Part shown: positions 1 through 9,389 of the stretch, one piece after another
Layout: the number at the start of each line of letters is the position of its first letter
Position numbering within the stretch: position 1 is the first letter of the stretch
Origin: Actinomycetes bacterium
GTDB taxonomy: Bacteria; Actinomycetota; Acidimicrobiia; Acidimicrobiales; RAAP-2
Reading direction: 5' to 3'
DNA length: 9,389 nucleotides
NCBI GenBank assembly: GCA_021849435.1
Contig: JAJZSX010000069.1
Coordinates: 1-9,389 of the forward strand
Position numbers and translations under genes: made by a program
Notes under the pieces: model-generated
Databases searched by the model: none
Seen by the model: only the letters and a program-made list of their open reading frames with translations
What the model was told of the DNA's origin: nothing

Positions 1-108
1 CGAATCACTAACTCTGGACGACGTCGATACCTTCACCTGCCAACACACTGGCCATGGGCCATGCAGTGGAGCGAGTGCTTCGTGCGGCTCGTCAAACTAC
101 AGACCTGA
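1..108 (+). CDS. IS1380-type transposase, C-terminal end (partial)
   Basis: Reading frame 1 is open from the window edge to a TGA at 106-108 and encodes 35 residues. The segment SGRRRYLHLPTHWPW followed by WSECF resembles the conserved C-terminal tail of IS1380-family (DDE, IS4 superfamily) transposases, which typically read SGRR...HLP.HWPW...W..LF and often continue with ACGPP. Here the frame instead ends VRLVKLQT, while the overlapping +1 frame reads ASCGSS just after the WSECF region. This suggests, but does not prove, that the tail carries an indel and the element is decaying. The 5' part lies outside the window, so whether the element is intact cannot be judged. Family recognition is from memory of the motif, not from a search. 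Confidence 0.6.
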   Translation, partial: RITNSGRRRYLHLPTHWPWAMQWSECFVRLVKLQT

Positions 109-461
109 CCGGTCCACCCCTGAGGTCGCCCGCGGCACGCCCGGTGACTTCCAGCGCTAACAGGTAACAAGAATCATCGAGCTGGTGACCCCACACGTCC
201 GCTCAACGGACAAACACCCGGACCTCGGAGAACCACGACTGAGTCTGAGGTCTTGGCTTCGAATTCGTCGACTACTTCACCCGCGCGGTGGATCGAGGTT
301 TAGGACTCGAGGTAGTCACGAGATGGTGATCGAATCCCAATTCATCGGCGCGCGATGAGATATCGTCAGGTAAGTCGGATGAGGCCCCGACAGGCAGTAG
401 CCGGAACCGCCCCACCGGGCTAATGGCTTCTACGGGAGTTCGATCGCGTGGAGGTTGTTTC
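109..461. other. Non-coding gap between transposase remnant and hydrogenase-like operon
   Basis: No convincing reading frame is seen on either strand. The first part presumably holds the 3' end of the insertion element, but no terminal inverted repeat could be paired because the other end is outside the window. The operon promoter should lie here, yet no clear -35/-10 pair with normal spacing is visible; TTCATC at 341 and TATCGT at 361 are only 14 bases apart. An imperfect inverted repeat, TAGCCGG (398-404) and CCGGGCTA (415-422, one bulged G) with a 10-base loop, sits just upstream of the first gene. It has no T tract and may be chance or a leader hairpin. Confidence 0.5.
450..454 (+). promoter_or_regulatory. 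Ribosome binding site deciding the hycD start
   Basis: GGAGG at 450-454 lies 7 bases before the GTG at 462. No comparable site precedes the upstream in-frame ATG at 423, and the 13 residues between the two starts (Ser/Arg/Gly-rich, polar) do not look like part of a NuoH-type N terminus. The GTG is therefore the preferred start. Confidence 0.6.
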
Positions 462-1427
462 GTGGGCTTGATAGTTCTATCCCCAACGGGGATACAGGCA
501 CTTCAGGTTCTGACGATCCTCCTCGGTGCTCCTCTGGTGAGTGGTGTGACTTCTCATCTCGAAGCACGTTTCCAGGGTCGACGAGGACCCCGGATACTTC
601 AGCCCTACTACGACATCGCGAAGCTTTTCCGAAAAGAAACGTTGGTCACTGACGAGTCAAGTTGGGTGTTTCTAGCTGGTCCGATCGTCGCGTTCGCCTG
701 CTACCTGACCGTTCCGATGCTCATTCCCGTGCTGACCACCTTTCCGCTTCCGCTGGGCTATACCGGGGACATCCTCGGTGGTGGGTTCATCTTGGCACTG
801 GCCGGTTTTGTCGTGGCCCTCGCTGGCACCGAATCGGGCGCGCCGTACGCTCAACTGGGCGGAAGTCGCGCGATGACGTTCGGGGCGCTCATAGAACCAA
901 CGATTCTCTTCGTAATCTTCGCCGTGGCTCTGATCACTCGCACCGACCTTCCCTACGCGCTCGCTGCCACGGTCCGCTCTTCCGCCTCCCAGATGGTGCG
1001 CCCCAGCCACGTTCTCGCGGCCGCGGCGTTCTTTCTCGTGGTGCTCGTGGATACGGGTCGCATTCCCGTCGAGACGCATTCGGGAACTCTGGAGTTCGGA
1101 ATGATCGATGAGGCGCGCACTCTTGAACACTCCGGACCCGCGCTATCCCTGCTGAGATGGGGCGCGACGATGAAGCAACTCATCTTGTACACAATCCTCA
1201 TCAACGTGTTCATTGCGCCGTGGGGACTCGCAGCGACAGGCAATCTGGGTGCCGTCGGTCTCGCCGTGGTCGCGCTTCTGGTTAAAGCGATGATGCTCGG
1301 TTTGGTCTTCGCAATCATTGACAACCTCTTCTCCAAGCTTCGTCTCTTCAAGATCACGGAGTTCATCGCCAGCGCGTTTCTACTCGCCGTGCTCGGGGTG
1401 CTGGTCTTCTACGCCGGAGGTGGGTGA
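462..1427 (+). CDS. hycD: HycD/HyfC/NuoH-like membrane anchor subunit of an Ehr-type complex
   Basis: This is a polytopic membrane protein of 321 residues (334 if the ATG at 423 is used), close to the length I recall for M. tuberculosis HycD. In complex I and group-4 hydrogenases this subunit joins the soluble redox arm to the antiporter subunits and carries the start of the proton path. Family motifs are clear: EARFQGRRGP at about 34-43 followed by LQPYYDIAKLFRKE (47-60); SRAMTFGALIEP near 136-146; and DTGRIPVETHSGTLEF (197-212) followed by MIDEARTLEHSG, which carries the conserved acidic residues of the cytoplasmic loop. About eight transmembrane segments can be seen. The tail after the second acidic loop is of the Ehr/HyfC type. 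Its TGA shares one base with the next gene's ATG (TGATG), indicating translational coupling. The start is chosen on the GGAGG at 450. The symbol follows mycobacterial usage and does not imply formate hydrogenlyase activity. Confidence 0.9.
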   Translation: MGLIVLSPTGIQALQVLTILLGAPLVSGVTSHLEARFQGRRGPRILQPYYDIAKLFRKETLVTDESSWVFLAGPIVAFACYLTVPMLIPVLTTFPLPLGYTGDILGGGFILALAGFVVALAGTESGAPYAQLGGSRAMTFGALIEPTILFVIFAVALITRTDLPYALAATVRSSASQMVRPSHVLAAAAFFLVVLVDTGRIPVETHSGTLEFGMIDEARTLEHSGPALSLLRWGATMKQLILYTILINVFIAPWGLAATGNLGAVGLAVVALLVKAMMLGLVFAIIDNLFSKLRLFKITEFIASAFLLAVLGVLVFYAGGG

Positions 1428-2092
1428 TGTATCACGTCCCATCGACTTACGAAGGTGTTACCGCTGGTATGGCGGTACTCGTGCTGTTGAGCGAGTTCGC
1501 CATGCTGCGTGCGCCGCTGCTTCGTTCCCAAGTTCGTCTTTACGCCTTTCAGTCACTTGTGGTGAGTGGTCTGGCCGCATTCGTCGCCGCATCGAAGCAC
1601 ATCGACGAGTTGTACGTGCTGGCTGGGCTCTCACTGATTTTGAAGGTTGTCATGGTGCCCGGCCTCGTACTGCGGCTCTTGCGCGATGCCGACACGGACT
1701 TGGCCGGAAGCTCCGTGGTCGGGACGGCGAGTGCCATCCTGATCGCCATTGTCGTGGCCGCGTTCGGCTTCTTCGCCATTGGATCGCTGCACGTTAGTTC
1801 GGTGTCGTTGCCGACGTCGGCGCTCGCGATTGCCTGCGCTGTGGTTCTGGTGGCTTTCGTGCTGATCATTCTGCGAACGGACGTGGTATCCCAGGCGATT
1901 GGATTCTTCTCATTGGAGAATGGCGTCTCCGTGGCGAGCCTGGTCGTCGCTTCGGGGTTACCGCTGATCGTGGACGTCGCGTTCCTCTTTGATCTCTTGG
2001 TCGCGGTGGTGGTCTTTGGAGTGATCATGCGGGTGCACCACATGCGCAATGAGACGCTGTCCACCACTGAACTTGATCGGCTGCGAGGCTAG
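1427..2092 (+). CDS. hycP: HycP/HyfE-like membrane subunit (NuoK-related)
   Basis: This is a very hydrophobic protein of 221 residues with six or seven predicted membrane helices, matching the length of HyfE and M. tuberculosis HycP (about 220). The diagnostic region is SQAIGFFSLENG (155-166), with the HyfE-type LENG glutamate at E164, followed by DVAFLFDLLVAVVVFGV (183-199). HyfE proteins usually have Glu at the D183 position, so this is a conservative change. An earlier helix carries K73 in a polar context (LILKVVMVPG). In group-4 complexes this subunit packs between the NuoH-like and antiporter-like subunits and supplies charged residues to the proton path. I chose the ATG at 1427 over the GTG at 1424 because GGAGG at 1416-1420 is 6 bases from the ATG but only 3 from the GTG. 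The stop is immediately followed by the next start. Confidence 0.87.
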   Translation: MYHVPSTYEGVTAGMAVLVLLSEFAMLRAPLLRSQVRLYAFQSLVVSGLAAFVAASKHIDELYVLAGLSLILKVVMVPGLVLRLLRDADTDLAGSSVVGTASAILIAIVVAAFGFFAIGSLHVSSVSLPTSALAIACAVVLVAFVLIILRTDVVSQAIGFFSLENGVSVASLVVASGLPLIVDVAFLFDLLVAVVVFGVIMRVHHMRNETLSTTELDRLRG

Positions 2093-3580
2093 ATGTCCGC
2101 GCTCCTCGTCACTCTCGCCATTGCACCGCTTGCCTGTGCGGTCGTCACCTGGTTCCTTCCAGCGCGAGTCTCGAAATACCTGACAGTGGTCGTCGGTACA
2201 CTCTCATTCGTCGGCGCTCTGAGTCTGCTGTCGGGCGCGTCGCACCATACGGTCAGCGTCGGCAGTATCCTGCGCGTGGATTCGCTTTCCATAGTTTTCT
2301 TGCTAGCGGTCACGTTCCTCTACGCCGCTACGGCTATCTTCACCAAGGGCTATTTGAAGGTCGATCCCGGTATTCGTGGGACCCGCTACGGACGTCGATT
2401 TTACGCGGGACTCAATTTGTTTTGCTGGTCGCTGGTCGTCGCTCCACTGGTGAATGGTCTGGCACTGTTGTGGGTGGCCATTGAGATCACGACGGTCATC
2501 TCCGCGCTCCTGGTGGCGATCGACGACACGCAAGGTGCGTCCGAGGCCGCGTGGAAGTATGTGGTCCTCGCGTCGCTGGGGTTGGGCATCGCCCTGTTCG
2601 CAACGATTCTCATGTACTACGCCGGCACGTCCGTGTTCGGAGCGGCATACAATCTTTCGTATACGACGCTGCTCGCGGGTGCCGTCCATTTCCATCCTGA
2701 TGTCGTGCGTTTGGCCTTCGTGCTAGCCGTGCTCGGTTACGGCACGAAGATGGGACTCTTTCCGGTGCACACCTGGCTGCCCGACGCTCACTCCGAGGCC
2801 CCCACGCCGATCTCAGCGTTGTTGTCGGGAGCTCTTCTCGTGGTGAGCTTCTACGCGATTCTCCGATTTTTCCAGATCGCCGTGCGTACTTTGGGTCCTA
2901 CGTTTCCGCGTGAAGTGTTGCTCATCTTCGGCGTTGCGACACTGCTCCTCGCCTCGTTGTATCTACTCAGCCAGCGAGATATGAAGCGTTTGTTGGCGTA
3001 TTCGAGCGTTGAGCACATGGGAATCCTCGCGATCGGCATGAGCTTCAGCTCGCCGATCGCCATCTTTGGCGTATTGCTGCACGTCATGGCGCACGCGGCG
3101 GCGAAGGGGACGGCATTCTTTGGCGTGGGGTCGGTGGTGCGAAAATTTGGCACCAAGGACATGACAAAGATCCGCGGTGGGATCGGCGCTCTTCCGTGGA
3201 GCGGGACGATGCTGGTCGCCTCGGTATTGGCACTCTCGGCGATGCCACCGTTCGGTATTTTTCGGAGTGAGTTCCTCATCGTCTACGGCGGCCTATCTGA
3301 TCCGCGTGATGGCGTAGCGGCGATTTTCGTTGTGCTCGTCACGTTGGCATTCTTCGGACTGTCGTGGTTCACGACCCAGACGATGCTCAGCCCCGATTCG
3401 ACGAACGCGCTCGAGGCCGCACCGGGCACGATCGTGGTGGCGAAGGGCGAGGTGAGCGTATGGATCGTCGCGTCCATGGTGATCGGACTGGCGGCACTCG
3501 TGCTCCTGGGCGTACACCCCCCGTCACAGTTGAGCGAGTTGTTGCATCGAGCGGCGTACGAACTGAGGACCCCGAGATGA
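2093..3580 (+). CDS. hycQ: HycQ/HyfF-like proton-translocating antiporter subunit (NuoN/NuoM/MrpD family)
   Basis: A 495-residue membrane protein with about 14 helices, the normal size for HyfF or NuoM/N (M. tuberculosis HycQ is about 488). The proton-translocation signature of the Proton_antipo_M family is intact: E131 in WVAIEITT (helix 5 glutamate), K219 in GYGTKMGLFPVHTWLPDAH (helix 7 lysine and the broken-helix HTWLPDAH motif), H334 and K338 in HAAAKGTAFF (central/discharge lysine region), and E393 in GIFRSEF. RLLAYSSVEHMG (299-310) is also typical. Nothing suggests loss of pumping function. The start directly abuts the preceding stop (TAG-ATG), and the last bases overlap the large-subunit start as ATGA, so translation is probably coupled. 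The product should form one of the two antiporter modules of the complex encoded here. Confidence 0.9.
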   Translation: MSALLVTLAIAPLACAVVTWFLPARVSKYLTVVVGTLSFVGALSLLSGASHHTVSVGSILRVDSLSIVFLLAVTFLYAATAIFTKGYLKVDPGIRGTRYGRRFYAGLNLFCWSLVVAPLVNGLALLWVAIEITTVISALLVAIDDTQGASEAAWKYVVLASLGLGIALFATILMYYAGTSVFGAAYNLSYTTLLAGAVHFHPDVVRLAFVLAVLGYGTKMGLFPVHTWLPDAHSEAPTPISALLSGALLVVSFYAILRFFQIAVRTLGPTFPREVLLIFGVATLLLASLYLLSQRDMKRLLAYSSVEHMGILAIGMSFSSPIAIFGVLLHVMAHAAAKGTAFFGVGSVVRKFGTKDMTKIRGGIGALPWSGTMLVASVLALSAMPPFGIFRSEFLIVYGGLSDPRDGVAAIFVVLVTLAFFGLSWFTTQTMLSPDSTNALEAAPGTIVVAKGEVSVWIVASMVIGLAALVLLGVHPPSQLSELLHRAAYELRTPR

Positions 3581-5076
3581 ACATTGATCGATCAACTCAT
3601 ATGACATCTATCGATCGCTTCAGCGACGAGGTGGCGCGTCACGTGAGCCACGGCGCGCGATTCGCTGGACTCGTTGCGAGTGCCGAAGGTGAGGACACTC
3701 GACTCATCGCGCTGCTCTCCCACTCGGGATCGCTGGTCATCCAAGAAACAGTGGTGCCCGCGGGCGTGGGCGCTTTCCCCGCTCTCTCGAGGCAGGCGCC
3801 GGCGGCGAGCTGGTACGAGCGAGAGATCCACGACCTGTTCGGTCTCGTGCCGAGTGGGCTGGACCGCGTGGATCCGCTGGTCTTTCCCTTCGTCACGTCG
3901 GCCATCCGACCCCGATTCGGATCGGGGTCCGTCGCTCCCGAGGGTCAACTCGATCCCACGCCACTTACTGCACATCTTCGAGGCGAAGGAGTCTTCACGA
4001 TCTCGTACGGGCCCGTCCGCTCGGGGGTGTTTGAGTCCATTGAGTACTTGGTCGAAACGCCGGGGGAGGACATCCCACACCTGCGCACTCGGGTCTTCTA
4101 CAAGCACCGTGGCGTTGAGGCTCGCTTCGAAACGCTGGACGTCGGTGATGGGGTACTGCTGGCCGAACGGTGCGAAGGGGTGGCGTCGGTCGCTCACGCC
4201 ATTGCGTACTGCGCCGCGCTCGAAGAGTTGGCCGGTGTCGAGGTGCCACTACAGGCCGGGCTCGTGCGGGTGTTGCACGCTGAGCTCGAACGGGTCGCGA
4301 ACCATCTGGACTCGACCGTGCGCCACAGCGAGGCGGCGGGGCAAGCCGTCGCCTTCGCGCGGTTTTCGCTACACAAGGAGAGGGTTCAGCGGCTCCGGGC
4401 GCAACTCAGCGGGAGCAGGTTCGGTCGTGGCGTCGTCGTTCCGGGAGGGGTGGCGGGCCCTCCGGCGCTCAGCGCCACTGAGACGCTCGGCGCAATTGGT
4501 ACTCTCGAGCAGTCGATCGACGTCGACACTCGTCTGTTGATGAACACGCCTTCATTCCTCGATCGGTTGAGGGGTACCGGTGTGCTCGAGGCCGACGTCG
4601 CCGACCGCTTCGGAGCGCTCGGTCCCCTAGCCCGGGGATCAGGGGTAATGGAGGATGTCCGATTCGCCCGCGCGTACGGTGCGTACGTCCACCTTGGCGA
4701 GCAACTACTCGAGGTACGCGGCGACGGTGACGCGCTGGCGCGCCAGCGTGTTCGAGTCCAAGAGATTACCGGAGCGTTTTCACTCATGCGCGAGGCCATT
4801 GAGGAACTCAGTAAACGGGGAGGGCCATCGGACACTGAATGGCGACGCCCAATCGGGAAAGTCAGCGGCCGAGCGGTGGGTTGGGCCGAGGCTCCCCAGG
4901 GTGAGGTGCTGTACCTCGTCGAGGCCCGAGACGGACAACTGGTACGGGTGAAGCCGCGTTCGGCGTCGTTCCATAACATGGCACTGTTTCCCGCCGCCTT
5001 TCCGAAGGACATCCTCACGGATTTCGCGTTCATTGAGGCCAGTTTCGGTCTCTCAATCGCCGGAGTGTCGAGCTGA
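3577..5076 (+). CDS. hycE: HycE-like fused NuoC-NuoD large subunit lacking all [NiFe] ligands (Ehr type)
   Basis: A 499-residue soluble protein. The N-terminal NuoC-like domain is marked by WYEREIHDLFGL (79-90). The NuoD/hydrogenase large-subunit domain is marked by GVFTISYGPVRSGVFESIEY (138-157), ETPGEDIPHLRTR, YKHRGVE, HAELERVANHLD (234-245) and RFGRGVVVPGG. True [NiFe] enzymes have RxCGxCxxxH at the first ligand site; here the segment reads ERCEGVASVAH (197-207), so the two ligand positions are E200 and A203, with a stray C199 one residue before. The C-terminal DPCxxC site reads DFAFIE (482-487), so both cysteines are gone. There is no cleavable extension after it, consistent with no nickel-dependent maturation. 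This makes it an Ehr-type protein rather than a hydrogenase. The frame is open upstream to 3364, but the ATG at 3577 is chosen because it overlaps the hycQ stop (ATGA) and has a GAGG about 9 bases upstream; an ATG at 3601 is the alternative. Confidence 0.9.
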   Translation: MNIDRSTHMTSIDRFSDEVARHVSHGARFAGLVASAEGEDTRLIALLSHSGSLVIQETVVPAGVGAFPALSRQAPAASWYEREIHDLFGLVPSGLDRVDPLVFPFVTSAIRPRFGSGSVAPEGQLDPTPLTAHLRGEGVFTISYGPVRSGVFESIEYLVETPGEDIPHLRTRVFYKHRGVEARFETLDVGDGVLLAERCEGVASVAHAIAYCAALEELAGVEVPLQAGLVRVLHAELERVANHLDSTVRHSEAAGQAVAFARFSLHKERVQRLRAQLSGSRFGRGVVVPGGVAGPPALSATETLGAIGTLEQSIDVDTRLLMNTPSFLDRLRGTGVLEADVADRFGALGPLARGSGVMEDVRFARAYGAYVHLGEQLLEVRGDGDALARQRVRVQEITGAFSLMREAIEELSKRGGPSDTEWRRPIGKVSGRAVGWAEAPQGEVLYLVEARDGQLVRVKPRSASFHNMALFPAAFPKDILTDFAFIEASFGLSIAGVSS

Positions 5077-5885
5077 TGCCGTGGATTCCGCGCGGACTAC
5101 GTGAAGGTATCGTCACCTCCCGCTACCCCCGGCGCCTCGATAACTACGGACCAGGCTTCCGGGCGTCCGTCACCATTACTCGCGGGACGACGACGGGCGA
5201 CGAACTGAACCTCGCGGCGGCCGCTTGTCCCACCGGGGCGATTACGGTCGTAGACGCTGATCCATCGCTGGACCGTGGGGCGTGCATCTTGTGTGGACGA
5301 TGCGTGCAGATGCTGCCCCGGGTATTCCGGTTCTCGCCGGCCATTGAAACGTCATCTATCCTACGTACGCGATTGGTGGTACCCGAGCCCGAGAACGATG
5401 CGTCACTCGCGGCGGTGCGGGGCGAACTGGCGCGCCGGGTCAGAGCACTGCGACGCTCGGTGCACCTTCGTCACGTCGATGCTGGCTCCGATGGTTCCGA
5501 CGAATGGGAGATTGCGGCGCTCACCAATCCGGTCTATGACGTGCAGCGACTCGGTATCTACTTCACAGCGAGCCCCCGCCACGCCGATATTCTCCTCGTG
5601 ACTGGCGTGGGCTCGGCGGGTATGACCGAGCCCCTGCGACGGACCCTTGAGGCCATGCCAAATCCGAAGGTTGTTATCGCCGCCGGCGTGGAGGCGATCA
5701 GCGGTGGGCTCGTCGGCGAGGGGTACGCGTCGAGCGGCGGGGTGGGATCAAGCGTTCACGTTGACGTGTTCATTCCCGGTTCACCGGCGTCACCCTTTTC
5801 CCTGTTGCACGGGATCCTGCTGGCGATAAACCTGCTCCCGACGAACTCTCCGCGGGGCAATCCGATGACGGGTAGCGAATCATGA
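5076..5885 (+). CDS. Ferredoxin-NuoB fusion small subunit with degenerate cluster sites
   Basis: 269 residues. The N-terminal third is a 2[4Fe-4S]-ferredoxin-like domain: the first CxxCxxC is absent, but ACPTGAI (C51) remains, followed by CILCGRC (C70, C73, C76); the fourth cysteine of that second motif is L80. This leaves ligands for one cluster. The remainder is clearly a NuoB/hydrogenase small subunit: YDVQRLGIYFTASPRHADIL, EPLRRTLEAMPNPK, and VDVFIPGSP near the end. However, the proximal-cluster cysteines are all replaced: the CxxC in the usual GSCNGCD is D139/D142 (GSDGSDE), the GxC position is E206 (GVEAISGG), and the GCPP cysteine is S236 (GSPA). The backbone around each site is well conserved and gap-free, so random decay or sequencing error is unlikely. 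In complete complexes this protein carries electrons to the large subunit. The start shares a base with the previous stop (TGATG), and the end overlaps the next gene as ATGA. Confidence 0.88.
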   Translation: MPWIPRGLREGIVTSRYPRRLDNYGPGFRASVTITRGTTTGDELNLAAAACPTGAITVVDADPSLDRGACILCGRCVQMLPRVFRFSPAIETSSILRTRLVVPEPENDASLAAVRGELARRVRALRRSVHLRHVDAGSDGSDEWEIAALTNPVYDVQRLGIYFTASPRHADILLVTGVGSAGMTEPLRRTLEAMPNPKVVIAAGVEAISGGLVGEGYASSGGVGSSVHVDVFIPGSPASPFSLLHGILLAINLLPTNSPRGNPMTGSES

Positions 5886-7906
5886 GTGCCCTCTTCGCGA
5901 TCGCGATGGGGTGCTTCATTCTCGGGGTGCTCGTTGACCTCATCTTCGGGGTGGCGTCCAAGTACGCACGACCGTGGCCCTACGTACTCGCCCTCTCCGG
6001 TAGCACGTGCCTCGTGCTGGTCGGCGTTCACGCCACGACCTCTGGGTCGATCTCGGTGGGTCTCGGTGCCTTCCTCGGGGTCGGCCACGGTGCCTTATCC
6101 ATCGATCAACTCGCGGGCTACTTCCTCACCTTGATGTTCGCCATCGCTGCGGCCGTCTCGGTCTGTCTCGCATCCTGGGTCCATCCCGATGATCGGCGCC
6201 AACACCGAGGTACCGCCTCGGGCTACCTGCTATTGATCGGAGCCGCCGCCGTTATTGTGTGTGCGGCTGACGCATTCCTTTTCCTCTTTGCCTGGGAACT
6301 GCTGACGTTCGCGTTCTACATACTCACTTCGTTGACCCGATCGTCCGCCCGTCAGACGGGTGCCGCGTGGTCGACAATTGGCATGGGCAAGGTGAGCGGT
6401 GCGGCGTTGCTGTTCGGATTCTTGTTACTCGCCGGTCACACGGGCAGCCTCACGATCGCCAGTTGGCACGCCGTTGGTCCGGGTGCGCTGCTCGATGTCG
6501 CGTGGGTGCTCGTCGTGGTGGGCTTCGCGGCCAAGTTGGGGGTCGTGCCGTTCCAAGTATGGATTCCCATTGGTTATCCCGCGGCGCCCGGACCTACGCG
6601 CGCCGCGATGGCCGGGATCGCGGCGAACGTGGGTGTCTACGGGCTGTGGCGTTTCCTCGGTGTGTTGGAGCCTCCGCCCGTATGGCTCGTTATCATCGTG
6701 CTGCTCGTAGGAGGCTTCACCGCGCTGCTCGGCATCACGTTCGCGGGCGTCCAGTCCAGCCTTTCTCGCGTGGTGGCGTATTCGAGTATCGAGAACGCCG
6801 GACTCATCGTCACGGCGTACGGCGTGGCGCTCACGGGTGACGTTCTGCACTCTTCGGCGCTCATGGCGGTCGGGTTGCTCGCCGCCACCCTGCAGACCAC
6901 CGCGCACGCCATTGCCAAGTCCGCACTCTTCGTCTCGCTCGCCAACTTCGAAGAGGCGGCGGGTACCGATGATCTCGATCGCCTTCGCGGTGTCGGTCGT
7001 CGGATGCCTTGGAGTGGCGTGACGTTCGCCGCGGGAGCGTTGACTCTGGCGGGGCTACCGCCCACCATCGGCTTCGTCTCCGAGTGGTTCATCCTCGAAG
7101 CACTCATGCAGCAGTTCCGGGTTGGGGGGCTCGCGCTACGCCTCGGGCTCGTCGGGGCGGCGGCCATGGTGGCACTGACGACTGGACTCGGAGCGTTAGT
7201 GTTCCTGCGTCTTCTCGCTTTGACAATTCTTGGTAGAGCAAACCCCGAACTCGAGCGACGACGGGAGCCTGGATTGTTCAACAAGATCGGCCTGACGGTG
7301 CTCGGCACTGGCTGTCTGGCCCTCGCGGCCCTGAGCCCACTTGAGGTGCGCTATATCGCCGAGGGCTTGTCACCCGTGGTCGCAAAAGTCGTCACTATGC
7401 AGGCGCTGACGTCACCGTGGGTGCTCCAACCAGTGTTCTCGGGTTTCTCGATTCTGTCTCCGTCGTGGCTCTGGGTCATATTGGCGAGTGACATCGCGCT
7501 CGTGTTTCTTATGACCTTGCTTCTTTCGCGAGGTCAGTTCCTGCGAGTGCGCCGTGTGCCGGCGTGGCACTCGGCGACCTCCGGGGTGGAGGGCCCTTCG
7601 AATTACACGTCCTTCGGATTCGCCAATCCGCTTCGACACGTGCTGGCGAACCTGCTCGGCGCGAGGCGATCCGTGGACTCCGGCCATGGCGACGATGAAG
7701 GATCGCTTGATGGTCATTCGCACGTCGCGACGCATACGACGGTCGTCGAACCGGTTGAGAAGTACCTGTACCGTCCGTTGAGATCGAGTCTGCTCCAGGT
7801 GTCGAGGACCGCGAAGCGTCTGCAGTCGGGGCGACTCAACGTCTACGTGGCGTACATGCTGTTGGCGTTGCTGGGTGCTCTGGCGATTGTTGACGTGGTC
7901 AAGTAG
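5882..7906 (+). CDS. HyfB/NuoL-like antiporter subunit of the Ehr-type complex
   Basis: A 674-residue membrane protein of about 16 helices, corresponding to HyfB (and in M. tuberculosis to Rv0083, about 640 residues). The antiporter core is intact: E139 in FAWELLTFAFY, K218 in GFAAKLGVVPFQVWIP, H342 and K346 in TAHAIAKSALF, SRVVAYSSIEN (295-305), and E401 in GFVSEWF. The C-terminal part resembles other HyfB proteins, with a YTSFGFANPLRHVLANL stretch (575-591) and a final membrane helix (about 652-672). The Cys-Gly usually seen after a Trp shortly before this stretch is missing (WHSAT at 562). A polar, His/Asp-rich loop at 598-618 (HGDDEG and HSHVATH) precedes the last helix. The ATG overlaps the stop of the small-subunit gene (ATGA). 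It is the last structural gene of the complex. Confidence 0.9.
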   Translation: MSALFAIAMGCFILGVLVDLIFGVASKYARPWPYVLALSGSTCLVLVGVHATTSGSISVGLGAFLGVGHGALSIDQLAGYFLTLMFAIAAAVSVCLASWVHPDDRRQHRGTASGYLLLIGAAAVIVCAADAFLFLFAWELLTFAFYILTSLTRSSARQTGAAWSTIGMGKVSGAALLFGFLLLAGHTGSLTIASWHAVGPGALLDVAWVLVVVGFAAKLGVVPFQVWIPIGYPAAPGPTRAAMAGIAANVGVYGLWRFLGVLEPPPVWLVIIVLLVGGFTALLGITFAGVQSSLSRVVAYSSIENAGLIVTAYGVALTGDVLHSSALMAVGLLAATLQTTAHAIAKSALFVSLANFEEAAGTDDLDRLRGVGRRMPWSGVTFAAGALTLAGLPPTIGFVSEWFILEALMQQFRVGGLALRLGLVGAAAMVALTTGLGALVFLRLLALTILGRANPELERRREPGLFNKIGLTVLGTGCLALAALSPLEVRYIAEGLSPVVAKVVTMQALTSPWVLQPVFSGFSILSPSWLWVILASDIALVFLMTLLLSRGQFLRVRRVPAWHSATSGVEGPSNYTSFGFANPLRHVLANLLGARRSVDSGHGDDEGSLDGHSHVATHTTVVEPVEKYLYRPLRSSLLQVSRTAKRLQSGRLNVYVAYMLLALLGALAIVDVVK

Positions 7907-7913
7907 AGGGGGG
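7907..7913 (+). promoter_or_regulatory. Strong purine-rich ribosome binding site of the usp gene
   Basis: AGGGGGG directly follows the preceding TAG and lies 5 bases before the ATG at 7919. It supports that start over the internal ATG at 7949. No room exists here for a promoter or terminator, so the usp gene is probably co-transcribed with the complex genes. Confidence 0.6.
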
Positions 7914-7918
7914 AAATT

Positions 7919-8377
7919 ATGGTGGGAGAAGAGGTACGTGGTTCAGAAATGCACGGCGGCGTGTTCCGGCGAATTCTTGTCTGCTACGACGGCTCGAGCG
8001 GAGCACGACGCGCTCTTCGCGTCGCTCGGTCGCTCGCTGAGGACGTGGGAGGGTCTGTCGACCTACTGATGGTCGTCCGGCCACCCGCGCACGCCGAGAC
8101 GTCCGAGGCGAGCGAGGAGGCCATCGAGACCGAGCGACTTCAACTCTCCGCGGGTCTCGATGAAGAAGTGGCACGTGACGTGCAGAGTGCTCTCGGTACG
8201 CCGCACGTGGTCGTCCACGACAATCCCGCTGACGCCATTGCGAACTTTGCGAAACAACACGGGTTCGATCTCGTAGTCGTGGGGACCCACGGACGAGAGC
8301 AGGTGGTACACCGCGGTGTTGGACGCTCACTCGAGGCTCTACTTCGTCAGCATCCCTGTCCGGTGCTGGTGGTCTAA
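7919..8377 (+). CDS. Universal stress protein (UspA family)
   Basis: 152 residues, a single Usp domain of ordinary length. The first strand and nucleotide-contact aspartate are seen in RRILVCYDGSSGARRAL (D24), then RSLAEDVGGSVDLLMVV. The C-terminal half has DLVVVGTHG and the end HPCPVLVV typical of the family. The ATP-binding signature G-2x-G-9x-G-(S/T) is nearly kept: G122, G125 and G135 are present, but the next residue is R136 with S137 one place later, so ATP binding is likely but not certain. A 10-residue polar N-terminal extension precedes M11, which is an alternative start without a good ribosome binding site. The gene begins 12 bases after the last subunit gene, so it is probably co-expressed with the complex. 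A regulatory or energy-sensing role on the complex is inference. Confidence 0.92.
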   Translation: MVGEEVRGSEMHGGVFRRILVCYDGSSGARRALRVARSLAEDVGGSVDLLMVVRPPAHAETSEASEEAIETERLQLSAGLDEEVARDVQSALGTPHVVVHDNPADAIANFAKQHGFDLVVVGTHGREQVVHRGVGRSLEALLRQHPCPVLVV

Positions 8378-8551
8378 GTGAGAACTCTGGTCTCTAAAAG
8401 GTTGTTGCCCCCCCCTGCATCGTGGTCCGGCACCTCTACGCATCAGTGTCCAACGGTCTGGACGCGGTGGGTGCGTGCAACAAGGGGCGTGTCGGCGGGT
8501 ACGAATCACGCTCGCCGTCGGGTCTCGTCGTGAGTCGCACGAGAGGCGGAC
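8378..8551. other. Intergenic gap with two short hairpins
   Basis: Two inverted repeats are visible. GTCCA (8448-8452) pairs with TGGAC (8459-8463) around a 6-base loop. TCTCGT (8523-8528) pairs with ACGAGA (8539-8544) around a 10-base loop, and its 3' arm overlaps the presumed Shine-Dalgarno sequence of the next gene. Neither is followed by a T tract, so no intrinsic terminator for the upstream operon is evident. A run of eight C occurs at 8408-8415. A separate promoter for the downstream gene is plausible but no clear one is seen. Confidence 0.4.
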
Positions 8552-9389
8552 GTGGTGGGTAATGGTGAGGGAGTTGGCGCGCATGATCCCGATGTCGAGC
8601 CGAAGACCTCCGCGGGTGAGTTGAACAGTGCTGTCGACAAAGGTCAAGGGAAGCACTGGTTCACACCAGGTGTCGGGAGTGTGGGCGCATCGAGTTTTTT
8701 TTCTGACTCCGGCCACGAGATTGCTACCTCGCTGCTGCCCACCTTTTTTGCATCGGTGCTGCACGGAACGGCGGCGGGCCTCGGCATCGTCGAAGGCGTG
8801 AGCGACGCGCTCATGGGCGTTGCGAAACTCATCGGGGGCCCCTTCGCCAATGACCAGCAGAGGCGTTCGCGGCTTGCCGTAGGCGGATATCTGGGCACGG
8901 CAATTGCGACGGGGGCCATGGGCCTCGTCACCAACGTGTGGGAGTTGGGGGTGCTGCGATCAGCTGCGTGGGTGTCGCGCGGCGTCCGCTCACCCGCTCG
9001 AGATTCGTTACTGGCTCAACTCGCGCCGCCCGCCGCTTACGGCAAGGCGTACGGGTTGGAGCGGGCCGGTGACAACCTCGGCGCAGTCATGGGACCCTTG
9101 TTGGCCGCAGTGCTGGTGGGCTGGATCGGTATCCGACCAGCAATCTGGTGTGCGGCCATACCCGGCGCGTTCGCGGCATTCGCTATCTTGATTGCGGCAC
9201 GAGAGGCCCAGCGGCTACCGCGCGGTGAACGCTCGTCCTTTCGTTTCGACTTCTCGGCGCTACGACATCGAGGCCTGGCACGACCGCTCGTCCCGATTAC
9301 CCTCTTCGAGTTCGGCAACACCGCCACCACGCTGCTCATACTGCGCGTCACACAACTTCTGCACTCTGACGGTCGTTCGCTGGTCGCGG
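8552..9389 (+). CDS. MFS transporter, N-terminal part (runs off the window)
   Basis: The frame is open from GTG 8552 to the window end, 279 codons with no stop. After a polar stretch of about 40 residues come SFFSDSGHEIATSLLP (48-63), the first-helix motif of a bacterial MFS_1 subgroup, then a helix-2/3 loop GGPFANDQQRRSRLAVGG (the D..RR-type MFS motif A), a helix-4 arginine-rich RSPARDSLLAQL, and further helices including GAVMGPLLAAVLVGWIG. About seven helices are visible before the sequence ends. The substrate cannot be told. GAGAGG at 8541-8546 supports GTG 8552 or GTG 8555; TTG 8621 would give a shorter N terminus but lacks a good site. The conserved SFFSD motif spans a run of eight T (8695-8702), so the frame through the run is the correct one. 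Confidence 0.82.
   Translation, partial: MVGNGEGVGAHDPDVEPKTSAGELNSAVDKGQGKHWFTPGVGSVGASSFFSDSGHEIATSLLPTFFASVLHGTAAGLGIVEGVSDALMGVAKLIGGPFANDQQRRSRLAVGGYLGTAIATGAMGLVTNVWELGVLRSAAWVSRGVRSPARDSLLAQLAPPAAYGKAYGLERAGDNLGAVMGPLLAAVLVGWIGIRPAIWCAAIPGAFAAFAILIAAREAQRLPRGERSSFRFDFSALRHRGLARPLVPITLFEFGNTATTLLILRVTQLLHSDGRSLVA

Follow-up and report, generated by a model that had tools for sequence, protein, structure and literature searches.

The stretch of DNA analysed here, called the window below, comprises 9389 bases (positions 1 to 9389) of contig JAJZSX010000069.1 from an Actinomycetes bacterium of the order Acidimicrobiales (assembly GCA_021849435.1). It contains a gene set of the group-4 hydrogenase/complex-I type that includes hydrogenase-like large and small subunits (Table 1). 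The operon shares with the Ehr complexes its HycD-, HyfE-, HyfF- and HyfB-like membrane subunits, a HycE-like large subunit devoid of the [NiFe] site and a NuoB-like small subunit. The small subunit is the main subject of this report, as it lacks all four cysteines that would bind the proximal [4Fe-4S] cluster, named N2 in complex I. The start of the HyfE-like gene overlaps the stop of the HycD-like gene, and the likely start of the large subunit is ATG 3577, chosen for its overlap with the stop of the HyfF-like gene.

Table 1. Genes and residues of interest in the window, with the evidence for each
Feature	Positions	Strand	Evidence or remark
HycD/NuoH-like membrane anchor	423..1427	+	PF00146, Pfam E 1.2e-33
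HyfE-like membrane subunit	1424..2092	+	NCBIfam NF008556, below cut-off (83.9 vs 136 bits)
HyfF-like antiporter-type subunit	2093..3580	+	PF00361, E 3.5e-48
Large subunit (30-kDa + 49-kDa/HycE-like), 499 aa	3577..5076	+	PF00346/PF00329, alignments
Glu codon at the place of the first N-terminal [NiFe] Cys	4174..4176	+	E200 counted from ATG 3577 = E192 counted from ATG 3601
Small subunit: N-terminal single-cluster ferredoxin domain + NuoB-like domain	5076..5885	+	PF01058, PF13370
Retained ferredoxin cysteines, cluster II pattern	5226..5303	+	sequence reading; conservation in 132 sequences
Ferredoxin cysteines C51, C70, C73, C76	5226-5228, 5283-5285, 5292-5294, 5301-5303	+
D139, first proximal-cluster ligand position, GAT	5490..5492	+	alignment with MbhJ, HycG
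D142, second ligand position, GAC	5499..5501	+	alignment; D/E in 130/132
E206, third ligand position, GAG	5691..5693	+	alignment; D/E in 132/132
S236, fourth ligand position, TCA	5781..5783	+	alignment; S/A/T in 132
HyfB-like antiporter-type subunit	5882..7906	+	PF00361, E 3.6e-39
Universal stress protein, 12 bases downstream of the HyfB-like gene	7919..8377	+	PF00582

The small-subunit reading frame is intact and encodes 269 residues. The original prediction, made from the sequence alone, had placed D139, D142, E206 and S236 at the four ligand positions of the proximal cluster, and both the codons and the alignments bear this out. The phmmer alignment with MbhJ (6cfw_J) is gap-free, that with HycG (7z0s_G) has one 3-residue gap well upstream of the ligand positions, and both of these proteins have Cys at all four places. 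The four codons, which had been described as a coordinated set, each differ from TGT/TGC by 2-3 bases, and a base-calling error is very unlikely because at least nine changes in total would be needed to turn them into Cys codons. The NuoB fold is retained, with HycG of the E. coli formate hydrogenlyase as the best solved match, and the AlphaFold2 model of the subunit has a mean pLDDT of 79.8.

Conservation was followed in three protein searches, from each of which the best 120 matches were listed, out of 4674 (E ≤ 1e-3) for the window small subunit, 7949 for a Rubrobacter-type query and 7450 for an Acidithrix-type query. In the labels used below, L denotes loci, G genomes and P listed proteins, P0001 being the window's own small subunit, which is among the first 120; four-letter codes give the residues at positions 139, 142, 206 and 236. 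The prediction that the loss of all four cysteines, three of them to carboxylates, would be a distinct state of the family agrees with the result that every one of the best 120 of the 4674 matches lacks all four. Their codes are DEDS in 54, DDDS in 45, DDES in 15, DDDA in 3, and DEDA, DVDT and DVDS in one each. The acids at 139, 142 and 206 stand as predicted, but the exact D/D/E/S set is one form of a clade-wide state and not the peculiarity of one odd gene. Position 236 varies among Ser, Ala and Thr, so that the replacement pattern shared by the clade consists of three acidic residues and one small one, D-[DE]-[DE]-[SAT]. Close homologues with cysteines, which would have spoken against the prediction, were sought, and the nearest among the aligned rows is 57% identical over the domain.

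Adding 12 locus rows to these 120 matches gives 132 actinobacterial-type sequences, in which position 139 is D in all 132, position 142 is D in 72, E in 58 and V in 2, position 206 is D in 116 and E in 16, and position 236 is S in 123, A in 8 and T in 1. Among positions 1-261, 11 columns are at least 98% acidic in the actinobacterial clade, and three of them are former ligand positions. The wider alignment has 385 rows (360 listed proteins and 25 locus rows), of which 154 lack Cys139, and a one-off event was rejected on this count. Kept outside the 385 rows were L001 (a close copy of P0006), L017 and L025 (same as L001), the duplicates L003 (as L002), L020 (as L006) and L036 (as L011), the loci L021-L023 and L028, which have counterparts among the listed proteins, and the Cys-type loci L012, L014-L016, L030-L032, L034 and L037. 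The Cys-less small subunits form a conserved clade and are neither an error nor a product of decay.

The N-terminal ferredoxin domain has kept one cluster motif. C51, C70, C73 and C76 are present in 132, 131, 132 and 132 of the 132 actinobacterial-type sequences and fit the cluster II pattern of two-cluster ferredoxins; we take this cluster to correspond to N6b, the neighbour of N2. The cluster I cysteines (positions 39, 44, 47 and 80) occur in 0, 0, 0 and 20 of the best 120 Cys-less matches, and in 119, 119, 119 and 120 of the best 120 Acidithrix-type matches.

The large subunit lacks the [NiFe]-binding Cys motifs. It reads ERCEGVASVAH at the place of the hydrogenase RxCGxC, the Cys within this segment being one place off the ligand position, and there is no C-terminal CxxC. 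E192 (counted from ATG 3601) and H458 are each found in 13 of the 13 aligned large subunits from Cys-less operons, and H258 in 12 of 13. Six residues (T133, E152, H258, R324, R357 and D470, same numbering) are found in 12 or all 13 of these sequences and are absent from the 8 others. The residues that contact the quinone headgroup are H38 and Y87 of Nqo4, according to the available part of PMC7684303. Counted along the solved-structure alignment, Nqo4 H38, Y87 and H169 correspond to Phe, Gly and Gly in the window protein, and R84 is kept as Arg. A motif search of the open reading frames of L015 and L016 for a canonical NuoD found no match.

The membrane subunits have kept their channel residues. 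E158, E224 and E235 of the HycD-like subunit are identical in every locus aligned, and E131, K219, H334 and K338 of the HyfF-like subunit, as well as E139, K218, H342 and K346 of the HyfB-like subunit, are identical in all rows with the Cys-less label in which they are covered (11 to 13); in this comparison some rows represent a paralogous antiporter subunit in loci without the gene itself (L009 for HyfB; L018 and L041 for HyfF), and the comparison column included the Cys-less L003 and L019.

The available text of PMC10284858 and PMC4378227 defines Ehr by a large subunit without the [NiFe] site, and the window complex is therefore an Ehr complex. The proximal-cluster ligands lie outside the definition as given in those portions of the two papers. 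The Cys-type Ehr small subunits compared have four proximal-cluster cysteines, whereas the window subclass has none, and because the proximal cluster is missing we regard the complex as a new variant of Ehr. Our survey of the literature found no description of a Cys-less subclass, and an earlier mention may exist in the founding Ehr literature. A loss of all proximal-cluster ligands is not mentioned in the available portions of PMC4378227, PMC6349859, PMC10284858, PMC5037454, PMC7304191 and PMC7684303.

Several characterised systems resemble the window complex in part. The E. coli formate hydrogenlyase (7z0s, 7z0t) provides the best solved match for both the small and the large subunit, but HycG has all four cysteines and HycE the N-terminal CxxC of the [NiFe] site, which the window proteins lack; likewise, group 4 [NiFe] hydrogenases have four [NiFe]-ligand cysteines in the large subunit, unlike the window protein. 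Respiratory complex I (NuoB/NuoD) has the fold and subunit layout in common with the window complex, whereas its N2 cluster with four NuoB cysteines and the Nqo4 quinone residues H38 and Y87 have no equivalent here. The MBS sulfane reductase (MbsJ/MbsL) is, according to the accessible part of PMC7684303, also a relative of complex I with an altered proximal cluster and partly lost [NiFe] ligands, but it still binds the cluster through three cysteines, compared with zero in the window. The DAB2 CO2-uptake complex, as described in the accessible part of PMC13144422, is an earlier case in which an antiporter-like subunit of the complex-I type is coupled to chemistry other than redox; Pfam detected no DabA or carbonic-anhydrase-like partner among the eight proteins of the 9389-base window, nor any NuoEFG or formate dehydrogenase protein.

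More distant relatives differ in how many of the four cysteines they keep. The best 120 of the 7450 Acidithrix-type matches comprise 114 CCCC and 6 CCCS sequences, the latter, with Ser at the fourth position, being P0311, P0316, P0334, P0347, P0353 and P0358. The best 120 of the 7949 Rubrobacter-type matches comprise 94 CCCC, 9 CCPS, 14 D-E-S-[STA] (one of which, P0135, carries a Chloroflexota name) and 3 DEDS. In the CCPS group (L021-L024, P0121-P0129) the CxxC is kept, the fourth residue is Ser and the third Cys is shifted (AACGPACGG), so that C204 and C208 flank Pro206. Judged by these sequences, the Rubrobacter-type group is an intermediate between four-Cys and Cys-less small subunits. A Cys at position 208, two places past the third ligand position, is also found in all 17 Chloroflexota-like Cys-less rows (among P0130-P0191).

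Trees were built from subsets of 98 and 90 rows with the ligand columns removed. The 98-row tree groups the CCPS, D-E-S-x and DEDS sequences with the actinobacterial D clade (62 rows, support 98/86), which itself comprises 35 rows with support 100/100; the 62-row grouping was not recovered in the 90-row tree, and the branching of the Rubrobacter-type and other groups also differs between the two trees. A distant Cys-less NuoB-like protein with T-D-E-S at the ligand positions, on a long branch, is encoded on plasmid pMESIL01 of Allomeiothermus silvanus (L050:6854-7726); its ferredoxin part has a cluster II-type Cys set, and it lies in an Ehr-like operon. The minimum number of changes for the loss of the cysteines is 2 on the 98-row tree and 3 on the 90-row tree. 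A single Cys-less clade is not rejected by the approximately unbiased test (p = 0.256 with A. silvanus, 0.405 without), and we do not claim independent losses of the proximal cluster. The statement in the original prediction that other Ehr complexes keep this cluster is consistent with L028/L039, L011, L013 and L014, where a four-Cys small subunit goes together with a large subunit that lacks the [NiFe] site. Because such four-Cys operons already lack the [NiFe] cysteines, comparison of the operons suggests that the NiFe site was lost first and the proximal cluster later.

The distribution of Cys-less Ehr is rare and patchy. In genome searches, where scoring was limited to the best first-look candidates, matches were found in 7 of 396 genomes in the phylum of G005 (E ≤ 1e-40; 3 Cys-less, 4 Rubrobacter-type), in 4 of 394 genomes in the class of G005 (all Cys-less), and in 11 of 247 genomes in the class of G001 (E ≤ 1e-24), 4 of them Cys-less (G001, G227, G538 and G598) and 7 with Cys-type matches only; G005 and G227 were counted in more than one search. 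The small subunit of G001, the closest genome reached, is 78% identical to that of the window. An intact NuoB-like gene next to the operon would also have spoken against the prediction; in G001 the additional NuoB-like genes with cysteines lie on other contigs, and one of them, a Cys-type small subunit, is about 5 kb from a [NiFe]-less large subunit of its own.

We propose, with a probability of about 0.5, that the window represents a conserved Ehr subclass in which ions are moved without electron delivery to the NiFe/quinone cavity and the peripheral arm acts as a conformational or ligand-binding module. Such a complex, in which the proton-channel residues are kept, probably no longer passes electrons in the usual way. 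The sequences show that the ligands of both the [NiFe] site and the proximal [4Fe-4S] cluster are gone, the latter probably having been lost after the former. They also show that a single ferredoxin-type [4Fe-4S] motif, the NuoB fold and the ion-channel residues have been retained, and that carboxylates now occupy the former cluster site. Electrons could enter the remaining ferredoxin cluster, where their path would end. Because no relay from there to the former cavity is known and the quinone-headgroup residues are gone, H+ or Na+ would be moved without electrons reaching the cavity, and ion transport would most likely be coupled to something else. The single Fe-S cluster could be structural or redox-sensing. 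The buried carboxylate pocket, which would be protonatable and perhaps hold a divalent cation, could signal to the HycD-like and antiporter subunits which state the arm is in.

Several observations weigh against this proposal. The near-universal ferredoxin cluster motif is an argument that electron transfer still has a role somewhere. The carboxylates have exceptions, as Mycobacterium branderi has Asn139 and Ala236 (L049:9001-9795); L047, like a few other sequences, has V142, and S206 is found in 14 of the 17 Chloroflexota-like Cys-less rows. W144 (132 of 132) and F241 (131 of 132) are almost exclusive to the actinobacterial clade, and these side chains may equally well do no more than fill the emptied cluster site. 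No biochemistry of such complexes is known to us, nor any characterised case in which a complete complex-I-like assembly, peripheral arm included, couples ion movement to a process other than redox.

A different and rather unlikely possibility is that the acidic residues hold a non-sulfur metal, namely Fe, Mn or Zn in a mono- or dinuclear site, which would serve as an electron relay in place of N2 or form a new site of catalysis; Glu192, His258 or His458 of the large subunit might take part. The acid-only columns at three former ligand positions favour it, as does the conservation of these three residues in Cys-less large subunits, but E192 is also present in L040 and H458 in L011, both Cys-type operons. 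Moreover, E142 and E206 never occur together (E142/D206 58 times, D142/E206 16, D/D 56), as if the summed side-chain length were fixed, and this pattern in the sequences hints at a pocket of fixed size. The exclusion is significant by Fisher's exact test with ancestry ignored (5e-5), but not in a tree-aware pair test, and the N139, V142 and S206 exceptions count against a metal site as well.

It is improbable that a [4Fe-4S] cluster is still bound at the N2 site by Asp, Glu and Ser. Fe-S clusters with a single Asp or Ser ligand exist, which counts for such a cluster, but all four places are without Cys. Because position 236 is Ala in the mycobacterial and some other members, at most three oxygen ligands would be left, and we know of no [4Fe-4S] cluster held in that manner. 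In favour of a retained cluster, MBS is functional with three cysteines, according to the available part of PMC7684303.

Substitution by a Cys-bearing small subunit encoded elsewhere is less probable still. Cys-type NuoB-like proteins are indeed encoded in G001, G002, G003 and G538, but in L011, L013, L014 and L040 a large subunit belonging to the Cys-type gene is encoded no more than about 5 kb from it, and P0001 retains the conserved NuoB fold and sits inside the operon. A decaying or mis-sequenced gene is hardly credible and was rejected: the large-subunit homology of Mycolicibacter icosiumassiliensis (L004:8449-9997) is spread across two reading frames, through a frame break or an assembly error, but the Cys-less state is conserved in the best 120 matches and in operons of several actinobacterial families, and each codon is 2-3 bases away from Cys.

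How chemistry near N2 is coupled to distant proton channels is a long-standing question in complex I. A natural relative that has the coupling parts (the HycD-like and antiporter-like subunits and the NuoB/49-kDa scaffold) and neither a catalytic site nor an N2-type cluster would reveal what the membrane arm can do without the redox step. The broader generalization, that in several phyla the N2 site has become a carboxylate pocket, with another metal or as a protonation switch, in a full pump without electron delivery to the NiFe/quinone cavity, is offered tentatively. The name Ni,Fe-hydrogenase III small subunit, given to many such proteins by JGI, is misleading.

In the window, an Rfam scan and a tRNA scan found no match, and promoter and terminator scans gave results at the level of shuffled sequence. 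The universal stress protein gene is probably on the transcript of the operon. Such a gene lies beside the operon in four loci (window 7919-8377, L002:8502-8960, L041:7141-7581 and L049:3207-3599). Among 15 chosen neighbour genes, with most other neighbours outside the scan, no clear partner was found; they comprise six MutS_V, two Usp, two enolases, one MFS, one DUF6062, one histidine kinase, one fatty acid desaturase and one without a match. Adjacent pairs of MutS domain V genes occur near the Cys-less operon in three actinobacterial families (L002:12764-15846, L005:13959-17125 and L007:1439-4947), and an enolase gene is found near the operon in three mycobacterial loci (L004:12842-14116, L008:1010-2281 and L049:11825-13090).
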